Origin: a virus
Length of the DNA: 23,748 nucleotides
IMG/VR virus record: IMGVR_UViG_3300031933_000101
Coordinates: 1-23,748 of that record
Reading direction: 5' to 3' (one strand)
Shown piece by piece: positions 19,877-23,748 of the stretch. Numbering within the stretch: position 1 is the stretch's first letter; every line of letters starts with the position of its first letter. The notes beneath the pieces are model-generated. The model did no database searches. It was given only the letters and a program-made list of their open reading frames with translations, and was not told the origin of the DNA. Made by a program: the position numbers and the translations under genes.

Positions 19877-19926
19877 GATGTGGATAGTGTCCCCGTAATT
19901 TTTTTACATAATGTGTATTTTTCTTG

Positions 19927-19955
19927 TTGACACATGCCGCACCGCTTGGTATTGT
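19927..19955 (+). promoter_or_regulatory. Promoter of cassette 1 (first copy of the repeated leader)
   Basis: TTGACA (19927-19932), 17 bases, TATTGT (19950-19955), then TTTAACCACA and an ACAACTAACCAA leader. The same skeleton recurs at 20403 and 20891, but this copy lacks the palindrome between the boxes and has nine G's (19985-19993) where the others have AGGAGG. An A/T-rich tract lies upstream. The region 19877-19997 also faces the minus-strand late operon, for which I see no convincing promoter here. Confidence 0.75.
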
Positions 19956-19997
19956 TTAACCACAACGACGGAACAACTAACCAAGGGGGGGGGCAAC

Positions 19998-20156
19998 ATG
20001 ACCGCAACTTTCGAAGCAAACGGGAAAGCATGGAAGACTGACGAAGACACCCTCAACATTATGCGCGAATATAGAAACAGTGGTAACAGCTATATGGTAG
20101 CCGCTGTCTTCGAAATAGGCGTTGCTTGCGGCAGGATCGTCCAGGTGGCACAATGA
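19998..20156 (+). CDS. 52-aa hypothetical protein, first gene of cassette 1
   Basis: Start MTATFEANGKAW is chosen because it follows the G-rich ribosome site and the promoter copy 1 leader. The open frame upstream reaches through the promoter and is not used. The product is soluble with a helix around TLNIMREYRNSGNSYMVAAV and a possible second amphipathic helix after it. I do not recognise a family. Its stop overlaps the start of the HTH gene (ATGA), so the two are co-translated. It may act with the HTH protein, for example as a modulator, but this is only context. Confidence 0.75.
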   Translation: MTATFEANGKAWKTDEDTLNIMREYRNSGNSYMVAAVFEIGVACGRIVQVAQ

Positions 20157-20353
20157 CCCCAACAGCCCTCAAAGACTCCCTCAAGGCTCTCGGCTGGTCG
20201 CAATCGCGGCTGGCCGTGGCCCTAGGGGTAACGAAAACCACAGTTAGCAGGTGGGCGACAGGCCAAATACCCATTCCTCAGTATGCCGTTGCTTACCTTG
20301 CCCTAGCCATGAAAGTTAAAGAATTTTCCGGCGATTGCTTGCAGCCCCATTAA
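20153..20353 (+). CDS. Small XRE/Cro-like helix-turn-helix regulator
   Basis: The 66-residue product is one helix-turn-helix domain. After MTPTALKDSLKALGW come helix 2 SQSRLAVALG (16-25), the turn V-T, and recognition helix TKTTVSRWATG (27-37), then IPIPQYAVAYLALAMKVKEF. It is Cro-sized, lacks a separate dimerisation domain, and begins at an ATGA overlap with the 52-aa gene. It resembles the C-terminal domain of the 131-aa gene at 21295. It is a candidate to bind the 16-bp palindrome in promoter copies 2 and 3, or a site elsewhere. Its target is not known. Confidence 0.88.
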   Translation: MTPTALKDSLKALGWSQSRLAVALGVTKTTVSRWATGQIPIPQYAVAYLALAMKVKEFSGDCLQPH

Positions 20354-20367
20354 TTCGGGGCTTTTTT
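20343..20367 (+). terminator. Terminator of cassette 1
   Basis: AGCCCC (20343-20348) pairs with GGGGCT (20357-20362) and a run of T's follows. The TAA stop of the HTH gene lies in the loop. It is almost identical to the terminator at 21680. Confidence 0.85.
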
Positions 20368-20402
20368 ATTTTTATTTTTCTGCAATTTTTTATCTTTTCC
20401 TG

Positions 20403-20431
20403 TTGACACACCGAACGGTGTGCGGTATAGT
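20403..20431 (+). promoter_or_regulatory. Promoter of cassette 2 with palindromic operator
   Basis: TTGACA (20403-20408), 17 bases, TATAGT (20426-20431). The 16-bp palindrome CACACCGAACGGTGTG (20407-20422, two 7-base arms around AA) fills the spacer and overlaps the -35 box, so a bound protein would block RNA polymerase. The following leader (TTTAATCACAGTGAGGGACA to AACAGGAGG) is conserved with copy 3. Confidence 0.9.
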
Positions 20432-20472
20432 TTAATCACAGTGAGGGACAAACTAACTAACAGGAGGACATT

Positions 20473-20781
20473 ATGATCATCAGCAGCCAGCGTTACATCA
20501 ATGAAGAAATCGTAGCCGAAAAGATCGCCGCCGAGGATTTCGAAGTCATGCTTAGCCCCGAGTTCGAGATTGATGGCGCAACCTACCAGATTGTTCTTGA
20601 CGGCCACCACTCCCTGCAAGCTGCCAAGCAAGCCGGCGTTGCCCCCTCCTTCTGGGTTGCTGACTGCTCCGACCATGACGCCATCGGTCTCCTCGAAGCT
20701 GGCGCCATTGATGATTTTATGATCGCCGTCCACATGGGTAACGACTACTACAACACCGAAACCGGAAAGGATGTCTGGTAA
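20473..20781 (+). CDS. Protein with ParB-like DGHHS motif, first gene of cassette 2
   Basis: The 102-residue product begins with MIISSQRYINEEIVAEKIA and has a motif IVLDGHHSLQAAKQAGVAPS at about residues 40-59. This resembles the ParB/sulfiredoxin-like nucleotide-binding core (usually DGHHR or DG.HR followed by a helix), here with Ser in place of Arg. The rest is acidic, with an end rich in Asp and Tyr (HMGNDYYNTETGKDVW). It is far shorter than a ParB and lacks its DNA-binding helix-turn-helix, so partition is unlikely. A small nucleotide-binding or modifying role is possible. AGGAGG lies 5 bases before the ATG. It is directly controlled by promoter copy 2. Confidence 0.88.
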   Translation: MIISSQRYINEEIVAEKIAAEDFEVMLSPEFEIDGATYQIVLDGHHSLQAAKQAGVAPSFWVADCSDHDAIGLLEAGAIDDFMIAVHMGNDYYNTETGKDVW

Positions 20782-20894
20782 TGAAACTGACCACTGAGCA
20801 CAGCGCATCGAGCTATGGGATGCCCGTCTTTGTAGACGACGACAATCAACTGGTTATTCAAAATATTTTTCACTTTTTTTATTTTCCCTGTTGA
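20781..20894 (+). CDS. 37-aa ORF coupled to the DGHHS gene
   Basis: The ATG shares one base with the TAA of the preceding gene (TAATG), and the frame stays open for 37 codons, ending inside the -35 box of promoter copy 3. The first part, MKLTTEHSASSYGMPVFVDD, looks like a soluble protein; the last ten residues (IFHFFYFPC) are simply the translation of the T-rich promoter upstream tract. It has no ribosome site of its own beyond coupling. It could be an eroded or truncated gene cut short by the arrival of promoter copy 3. Confidence 0.45.
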   Translation: MKLTTEHSASSYGMPVFVDDDNQLVIQNIFHFFYFPC

Positions 20895-20919
20895 CACACC
20901 GAACGGTGTGCGGTATAGT
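20891..20919 (+). promoter_or_regulatory. Promoter of cassette 3 with palindromic operator
   Basis: TTGACA (20891-20896), 17 bases, TATAGT (20914-20919), with the same CACACCGAACGGTGTG palindrome at 20895-20910. Promoter, operator and leader differ from copy 2 by only five bases from CCTGTTGACA to the start codon, which fits recent duplication or strong selection. Confidence 0.9.
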
Positions 20920-20960
20920 TTAACCACAGTGAGGGACAAACCAACCAACAGGAGGATGTT

Positions 20961-21251
20961 ATGATCGAGCTGACCATCAAACGCCCCAACGGAGAAATCG
21001 AAAAAGTGGCTACCGAATTTGCCGGTATGACAAAGGTTTTGTTTGGTAAAATCCAAGAAGCAACCCGCAACGCAGGCCGTGGCGAAGTCCTTGTCTGGGA
21101 ACTCGTTGACACCCGCACTGACGACGAAAAGGCCGCACTTGCCAAACAAGACCGAATCGAAAGCATTAAACAACAAATCCGTAAAGCCCATGACCGCAAT
21201 GATGCGATCGCCGTTTCGAAACTGGAAAAAGAACTGGCGGCTATCAAATAA
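20961..21251 (+). CDS. 96-aa hypothetical protein, first gene of cassette 3
   Basis: The product has a beta-type N-terminus (MIELTIKRPNGEIEKVATEF, then GRGEVLVWELVDTR) and a long charged helical C-terminus (EKAALAKQDRIESIKQQIRK to KLEKELAAIK), which may form a coiled coil. There is no Cys or membrane segment. CAGGAGG precedes the ATG, and the first six bases of the gene (ATGATC) match those of cassette 2. I do not recognise a family. It shares an operator with the DGHHS gene, so the two are likely expressed together. Confidence 0.82.
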   Translation: MIELTIKRPNGEIEKVATEFAGMTKVLFGKIQEATRNAGRGEVLVWELVDTRTDDEKAALAKQDRIESIKQQIRKAHDRNDAIAVSKLEKELAAIK

Positions 21252-21294
21252 CCACCACACAAATAGCCCCGTTTCGTCGGGGAGGGAGGAAGTT

Positions 21295-21690
21295 ATGAAA
21301 TTTGTGAACCCTTTTCACAACACCGAAATCGACGTCGAGCCAATATCTGTCGGGGTTACAATCTACGATGAGCCGTGCGCCGAATTTACGGAATCTCAAA
21401 TTGAAAGCATCAGCATGGAACTCTGCGGTATCAAACAATGTACTTGCTGCAAATTTGAAAACCACTGCTACGATGAAGACGGCAAAAGTTATTTGATTAT
21501 GGTTAAAACTCAGGCCATGACAAAGGATGAACTCAAAGCCGCACAACTCACCCTTGGCCTCACCAACCAGCAATTAGCCGACGACCTTAAAGTTTCCCTC
21601 CGTGCCGTCGAAATGTGGCGGCAGGGGGCTAGGCCAATTCCTGGCCCGGTAGAAGTTGCGATTAATCTAATGCTTAATCAGCCCCGCTAG
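21295..21690 (+). CDS. Cys-cluster / helix-turn-helix regulator
   Basis: The 131-residue product has two parts. Residues 1-73 carry a Cys cluster, C44, C49, C51, C52 and C58 in ELCGIKQCTCCKFENHC, which could hold a zinc ion or an iron-sulfur cluster. Residues 75-131 are an HTH domain: MTKDELKAAQLTLGL, helix 2 TNQQLADDLK, recognition helix SLRAVEMWRQG, then ARPIPGPVEVAINL. The HTH resembles the 66-aa protein at 20153, including the 'W..G..PIP' end. The start at 21295 follows GGGAGGGAGG; the longer open frame upstream overlaps the 96-aa gene and is not used. The domain order (sensor-like N-terminus plus HTH) suggests a ligand- or redox-responsive regulator; this is inference. Confidence 0.85.
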   Translation: MKFVNPFHNTEIDVEPISVGVTIYDEPCAEFTESQIESISMELCGIKQCTCCKFENHCYDEDGKSYLIMVKTQAMTKDELKAAQLTLGLTNQQLADDLKVSLRAVEMWRQGARPIPGPVEVAINLMLNQPR

Positions 21691-22674: not shown

Positions 22675-22773
22675 ATGCTAACGCACCACAGACAGACGCC
22701 ACACGGCCAACATGGTATGTCGCCGTTATATGCCCGTAGGCAGGATGTAACGGAAAACGGAGAGGACTTTTGA
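22675..22773 (+). CDS. Possible 32-aa plus-strand ORF with strong ribosome site
   Basis: GGAGGAGAGGAGGTGTCT immediately precedes an ATG, an excellent ribosome site. The frame MLTHHRQTPHGQHGMSPLYA runs 32 codons, rich in His and Arg. No promoter is clear on this strand and it opposes its neighbours. The purine-rich stretch may instead serve another purpose, or be chance. Low confidence. Confidence 0.25.
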   Translation: MLTHHRQTPHGQHGMSPLYARRQDVTENGEDF

Positions 22774-22804
22774 GTATACCTGGCGATCCGGAACCTCTTC
22801 TCAA
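22773..22804 (-). promoter_or_regulatory. Possible promoter with TATACTCAAAAG box
   Basis: TATACT (22778 down to 22773) followed by CAAAAG repeats the 12 bases of the promoter at 23141. The best -35 candidate, TTGAGA (22799-22804), is 20 bases away, longer than ideal, so the call depends on the shared box. It would read into the leader with the hairpin at 22622-22656. Confidence 0.4.
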
Positions 22805-22812
22805 ATTTTCCG

Positions 22813-23067
22813 TCAATGGCTAAGGCCGCTGCTGTGTATACCGTAACGACCTCGTAACTCCGCCTCCACGTGGAAGGTGAGCTGAAGATCTGTGTCAAAG
22901 TCGCACCATTCGCATTTCGCATCATCCCAACTTGACGCAGGCCCGAGGCACATTCTCGCTAATTGCCGTTTCAGTAAGAGGCAGCGATCCCGATCCTCTC
23001 GGCTCTTGCTCCACGCTATACGCTGGATTTCGCCTTTGAGGTCGGTCATGCGCTGCTCTTTGTTCAT
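22813..23067 (-). CDS. 84-aa hypothetical protein behind an attenuator-like hairpin
   Basis: The product begins MNKEQRMTDLKGEIQRIAWS and is mostly helical and charged up to about residue 40 (REDRDRCLLLKRQLARM). A CEWC pair (about 52-55) sits in an acidic beta-type part. GGAGGG stands before ATG 23067. The same frame is open upstream to a GTG at 23121, but that would cross the terminator hairpin and has no good ribosome site; the shorter form is preferred. I do not recognise a family. It follows a strong promoter and a terminator, so its expression may depend on readthrough. Confidence 0.7.
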   Translation of the reverse strand: MNKEQRMTDLKGEIQRIAWSKSREDRDRCLLLKRQLARMCLGPASSWDDAKCEWCDFDTDLQLTFHVEAELRGRYGIHSSGLSH

Positions 23068-23080
23068 GCTCCCTCCGAAA

Positions 23081-23109
23081 CAAAAAAGGCCCCCAATTTT
23101 GGGAGCCTT
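23081..23109 (-). terminator. Intrinsic terminator/attenuator just after a promoter
   Basis: Read on the minus strand, AAGGCTCCC and GGGGGCCTT pair over about nine positions around AAAATT, then TTTTTTG. One pair is G-U on this strand but C-A on the other, so it favours minus-strand termination. It lies only about 30-50 bases after the likely transcription start and before the 84-aa gene. Confidence 0.82.
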
Positions 23110-23140
23110 CCGCTTGGACACATTTCGACCATCTCTTTTG

Positions 23141-23170
23141 AGTATAGCGAATAGGGGTAGCGAATGTCAA
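23141..23170 (-). promoter_or_regulatory. Strong sigma-70 promoter for the 84-aa gene leader
   Basis: On the minus strand, TTGACA (23170-23165), 18 bases, TATACT (23146-23141). It is the best promoter match of the minus-strand small-gene region. The transcript would start near 23134 and run straight into the hairpin at 23081-23109. Confidence 0.8.
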
Positions 23171-23210: not shown

Positions 23211-23654
23211 TTAAAAATTGGTAACTTTTCTTTTTGGCCAGATCCCGCGCTTCTTCGCTCGCTTCCAAAACGACCGGCAATAACTCCCAGCTGCGAGGCT
23301 GAGACTCTTTGACCATTGCCACTCATTGTATTTCGGTTTCAACCCGTATTCTCTCAACGCCTTGCAAACTTCGGGGTACTGGTCAAGCATGTACGGGGTG
23401 CAATATTGCGCAACGACAATCAGCGCCCCTCGCTCTGTGCCCGGCAGACACGACATAAGGTCAATCGCGTATTCCAGCCGGTAATCGGTCTTTCTCTCGC
23501 TCTGCACCATGTAACACGGCCCTTTTTCTACACCGCCGTTGGCAACATGGCTTTCAACTTCGCTGAACTTTCTCGTTATACCGCCTAGTGTTGGGTGCTG
23601 CGCCAGGTCGATAAGTTGGAATGCGTCCTGAAATGCTCGCTCCCGTTCGTCCAT
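23211..23654 (-). CDS. 147-aa hypothetical protein
   Basis: The product is mixed helical, with FQLIDLAQHPTLGGITRKFS near the start, YAIDLMSCLPGTERGALIVV in the middle and a basic end (CRSFWKRAKKRGIWPKRKVT) suited to nucleic-acid binding. I do not recognise a family; a late-transcription regulator of the Q/antiterminator kind is a guess based on the basic end and position only. Two ATGs lie side by side (23657 and 23654); AGGAGG fits the second. The start overlaps the end of the gene upstream. Confidence 0.78.
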   Translation of the reverse strand: MDERERAFQDAFQLIDLAQHPTLGGITRKFSEVESHVANGGVEKGPCYMVQSERKTDYRLEYAIDLMSCLPGTERGALIVVAQYCTPYMLDQYPEVCKALREYGLKPKYNEWQWSKSLSLAAGSYCRSFWKRAKKRGIWPKRKVTNF

Positions 23655-23748
23655 CATCCCTCCTGCTGTTTGAGGTAATCCGTTAACCTCCTACCCCTGC
23701 CCCATATCTGCTTGAGCGCCGCCAAGTCCTCAGCCATCCATGACGTTC
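23654..23748 (-). CDS. C-terminus of an upstream gene (partial)
   Basis: A frame open from the window edge ends at a TGA (23656-23654) that overlaps the next start. Its last residues are MAEDLAALKQIWGRGRRLTD then YLKQQEG. The end contains the AGGAGG ribosome site of the next gene. It could be the tail of a longer gene or a short gene starting at MAEDL. Too little is visible to name it. Confidence 0.5.
   Translation of the reverse strand, partial: TSWMAEDLAALKQIWGRGRRLTDYLKQQEG

Follow-up and report, generated by a model that had tools for sequence, protein, structure and literature searches.

A promoter closely followed by a terminator as a candidate late-gene switch in virus record IMGVR_UViG_3300031933_000101

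Introduction

Near the end of virus record IMGVR_UViG_3300031933_000101 (23748 bases; the window analyzed here is the whole of this record), a near-consensus promoter on the minus strand is followed almost at once by an intrinsic terminator, and the locus therefore raises the question of what such a unit controls. The original prediction had offered two answers: either a short regulatory RNA of about 50 nt is made, or the 84-aa gene beyond the terminator is held back until antitermination occurs. Our analyses indicated that the second answer was probably right about antitermination, in which it is backed by relatives, by lambda and by the 21-type phages, and probably wrong in naming the 84-aa gene as the target, as the unit is kept in two relatives that have lost most of that gene. 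We consider it likely that the unit is a phage late-gene switch, with Q-type antitermination like that of lambda Q/PR'/tR', and with the product of the adjacent 148-aa gene (p148) as the antiterminator.

The promoter-terminator unit and its surroundings

The TTGACA-N18-TATACT sequence that had been predicted on the minus strand was found at 23170-23141 and is a sigma70-type promoter by an 11/12 sequence match, with the -35 hexamer TTGACA at 23170-23165, a spacer of 18 bases and the -10 hexamer TATACT at 23146-23141; the start is predicted near 23134, and we propose it as the late promoter. The complete hairpin and T-run anticipated shortly past the start, before the ribosome site of the 84-aa gene, were confirmed at 23111-23084 (minus strand; 12 pairs, loop of 4, T-run to about 23079). 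From these positions a short terminated transcript of about 55 nt is predicted (23134-23079, minus strand), with an MFE of -21.4 kcal/mol and a z of -2.8.

To place this unit in context, both strands of the window were scanned for a promoter of at least 9/12 with a strong terminator no more than 80 nt downstream, and 60 dinucleotide shuffles served as the control. The 23170-23084 unit was the one match in the whole window; the shuffles averaged 0.017 such pairs at 9/12, and 0 from 10/12 upward. A fit to the consensus does not prove use, and the promoter could in principle be a chance match ahead of a hairpin that merely ends the early operon. Given these shuffle counts, the direct repeat in the promoter and the equal layout in unrelated DNA (see below), we find that reading barely credible.

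The unit lies inside the 143-base gap that separates the p148 stop (23211) from the 84-aa gene, and it heads the late operon. Behind it, the minus-strand order is the 84-aa gene (22813-23067, its start at 23067 preceded by CGGAGG), a 64-aa gene, a DUF3310 gene, the terminase small and large subunits, the portal and the major head protein. The gene for p148, an ORF at 23211-23657 on the minus strand, is the last gene ahead of the late promoter, and its end is 40 bases from the -35. Because the window record stops at 23748, the genes ahead of p148 were deduced from relatives. Two features of a Q-type layout were thus found: a candidate regulator gene just 5' of the late promoter with co-directional late genes 3' of it, and an intrinsic terminator between the promoter and the first late gene, the latter in the window and in relatives. 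Further along the late leader region lies a second terminator (22656-22630, minus strand), and relatives have a terminator with another stem at the equivalent position.

Several other elements were observed in this part of the window. The 12-mer TATACTCAAAAG is found at 23135-23146, where it includes the late-promoter -10, and again at 22767-22778 (both minus strand), the second copy being before the second terminator and having no matching -35. The -35 of the late promoter lies between the arms of an imperfect inverted repeat, GGGGTAGTG / CGCTACCCC (23192-23157, minus strand), which could be an operator. The sequence GATGGT at 23133-23128 agrees with a -10-like pause element at the key positions only, and chance matches of this kind are common; it is a weak candidate for such an element. 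Elsewhere, a plus-strand gene block (19911-21690), one of its genes with an HTH domain, is embedded in the late region of the minus strand. Near-identical stretches (TTGACACACCGAACGGTGTGCGGTATAGTTTAA) surround the promoters at 20403 and 20891 there, and a weaker copy is found at 19927; this similarity suggests a single common operator.

A direct repeat within the promoter

The promoter contains an exact 8-bp direct repeat, ATTCGCTA, with copies at 23165-23158 and 23152-23145 (minus strand), the second overlapping the -10. The offset of the copies is 13 bp, both are within the promoter, and the window has no others. An 8-bp repeat arose by chance in 7 of 5000 promoter shuffles and in 11 of 5000 30-mers drawn at random from the window. 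We propose the ATTCGCTA repeat as a candidate antiterminator element between the -35 and the -10, with each copy a putative binding subsite. A search of the viral contigs for the repeat pattern returned no matches.

The corresponding site in relatives

Relatives were found through the large terminase, with 95-100% identity. At the p148/promoter/terminator site they have other DNA, in which a 115-116-aa gene is followed by a conserved promoter region with its terminator. This order of early gene, promoter and terminator recurs in L002, L006 and L007, in L004, and in the more distant L046, which encodes a 105-aa protein 43% identical to its L002 counterpart and has its own promoter and terminator; a clear direct repeat is absent from the L046 promoter. 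The gap from the -10 to the hairpin is 24 bases in both L002 and L046. As the DNA of the relatives differs and the layout is equal, we view the site as one architecture made of different sequences, although the relatives compared amount to few independent cases. In L006 the matching site comes after a 436-aa protein that we take, by eye and without a profile, to be a DnaB-type helicase, and a tRNA-Thr (TGT) gene (L006 7418-7493) is near the site corresponding to the 84-aa gene of the window. Two candidates for further cases were rejected: the match in L054 (genome_contigs) was false, being antisense to another gene, and in L012 the gene ahead of the terminator was the end of an endolysin.

Comparison of L002 and L004 showed which parts of the unit have been retained. 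The block TTTTTTTTAGCGATGYTAGCTTATA, 5' of and extending into the -10, is nearly identical in the two, whereas conservation is lowest in the leader, which has lost and changed bases and differs in length, and the hairpin stem is altered and still pairs. This pattern of a kept promoter block, a changed leader and a kept hairpin is consistent with a protein that recognises the promoter, combined with a terminator of any sequence. It counts against a small RNA acting on a specific target sequence, and no Rfam family reached threshold for this RNA; the short regulatory RNA of the original prediction is disfavoured, since no other part of the unit changes faster from one relative to another. A promoter and a terminator do bound the predicted transcript of about 55 nt, as they would a functional small RNA, and we nevertheless regard such a function as highly improbable. 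Among the viral_contigs, the TTTTTTTTAGCGATGYTAGCTTATA block was found in six, the same six that carry an 82-100% identical gene, and they represent few independent events because they are closely related.

The spacing of the relatives' promoters bears on a different possibility, namely that p148 activates the late promoter, that the terminator mainly closes the early operon, and that late RNA passes it through stronger initiation and leakage. In L002 and L004 there are 22 bases from TTGAC to the -10, compared with the usual 16-18, and a non-standard promoter of this kind could require an activator; the size of p148 is also usual among DNA-binding regulators. The window promoter, however, is near consensus and should need none, and in every case the terminator is 3' of the promoter at about equal distance, with the second terminator further on. 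Activation on its own is therefore an unlikely account of the unit. A weaker promoter-like sequence, TTACCA-N16-TATGCT, is present 5' of the late promoter (23224-23197, minus strand), and L002 and L004 have TTG-type hexamers, N16 and TATACT/CATACT at a nearly equal distance.

The relatives were also informative as to whether the unit could be an attenuator specific to the 84-aa gene, opened by translation of GTG or ATG frames across the hairpin. The in-frame GTG pointed out in the original prediction is indeed present at 23121, and a 22-codon ATG frame (23132-23064) crosses the hairpin and overlaps the 84-aa gene through the sequence ATGA at the start codon of the latter. Neither start has a clear ribosome site, with no obvious Shine-Dalgarno sequence for the GTG, and the 84-aa homologue in L002 has no comparable in-frame start upstream, so that we consider the GTG incidental. 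In L006 and L007, moreover, the 84-aa gene has been cut to its final 21 codons and the promoter and terminator are intact, from which we conclude that the terminator does not serve that gene. An attenuator of this type is very unlikely, and the controlled target is probably the entire late operon rather than the 84-aa gene. A pattern scan for homologues of the 84-aa protein found none.

The p148 protein

Sequence searches with p148 gave no match above noise in PHROGs, Pfam and NCBIfam and none in the PDB, and no homologues in phage records, viral contigs or species genomes. The protein does not belong to PF06530 (Phage_antitermQ) by family sequence match, and a profile comparison with 21-type Q gave no signal of similarity. 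The AlphaFold models of p148 and of the 116-aa protein were too poor to reveal a fold, and Foldseek returned no matches.

There was a weak similarity of p148 to the 105-116-aa proteins encoded at the same site in relatives, through the motifs LE[WY]AID and RxFWK (9.0 bits). This score was equalled in 4 of 20000 shuffles and was the top one among all frames of the window, and hhalign of p148 against the relatives' protein family gave P 1.3e-4; neither test was fully blind, because the motif had been noticed beforehand. Identities of 30-32% were obtained when a global alignment was forced, and they carry no weight as evidence. We propose that p148 is probably an unrecognised antiterminator that lets polymerase read into the late genes. 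It is possible, and we suggest it tentatively, that p148 belongs with the 105-116-aa proteins to a new family of antiterminators, so far seen only in uncultivated phages, which has no sequence relationship to lambda Q, 21Q or AlpA and has a site geometry of its own (the 13-bp repeat offset, and the spacing of 22 from TTGAC to the -10 in relatives).

The proposed late-gene switch

The sequences of the promoter, the repeat and the terminator were observed directly, as were their order and its conservation; use of the promoter, binding of p148 to the repeat, pausing and processive antitermination are what we infer from this arrangement. The late promoter (23170-23141) would fire, and polymerase would halt at the 23111-23084 terminator after about 55 nt. 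Once produced from the early operon, p148 would bind the spacer repeat of the promoter and board polymerase soon after the start, and the loaded polymerase would enter the late genes by passing both this terminator and the one at 22656-22630. If it acts as lambda Q, 21Q, AlpA and GafZ do (PMC6606751, PMC7969949, PMC9371919, PMC11150451), p148 may prevent hairpins from folding in the RNA exit channel.

We favour the late switch based on the lone promoter-terminator pair in the window, the gene order, the layout in relatives, the repeat, the conserved promoter core, the persistence of the unit in L006 and L007 and the geometry of Escherichia phage PhiR49_2. Counting against it are the lack of similarity of p148 to 21-type Q or the PDB, its weak link to the relatives' proteins, the repeat offset of 13 rather than 8, an L046 promoter without a clear repeat, the relatives' spacing of 22 and the want of a clear -10-like pause element. 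If correct, the proposal assigns a function to proteins that Pfam, PHROGs and the PDB do not match, and it would be another case of Q-type antitermination carried out by unrelated protein families. The promoter, terminator and protein are all small enough to be placed directly in a reporter assay.

Comparison with known antitermination systems

The order of replication genes, Q, PR', tR' and late genes in lambda is also seen here, partly via relatives, and the distance from the regulator stop to the -35 is 42 bases for lambda Q-PR' and 40 bases for p148. The leaders differ, that of lambda being about 195 nt and that of the window about 55 nt. Lambda Q and 21Q have no obvious homology to each other (PMC6606751); the lack of a PF06530 match therefore lowers the case that p148 is a Q protein and not the case that it works like one.

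AlpA of Pseudomonas and GafZ of the Caulobacter gene transfer agent are proteins unrelated in sequence to Q that have a binding site between the -35 and -10, with terminators further downstream (PMC7969949, PMC9371919, PMC11150451). They are chromosomal or gene-transfer-agent regulators, and p148 matches no PDB chain by sequence. The window shares with them the downstream terminators and a putative regulator unrelated to Q in sequence, and its ATTCGCTA repeat is the candidate for a corresponding site between the -35 and -10.

In 21Q, the site is a 6-bp direct repeat between the -35 and -10 in which positions -21 and -13 are essential (PMC6606751). PhiR49_2 (L060), which has a 21-type Q (PF06530), carries AGTATGT twice by the -10 with an offset of 8, followed by about 50 nt and then the terminator. 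The window differs from this 21-type Q/PR'/tR' arrangement in its repeat offset of 13 and in p148 having no sequence similarity to 21-type Q. It has the same succession of a gene, here for the proposed regulator, directly upstream, a direct repeat that precedes the -10 and runs into it, some 50 nt, an intrinsic terminator and the late genes, and PhiR49_2 is thus the nearest match in layout to the proposed switch.
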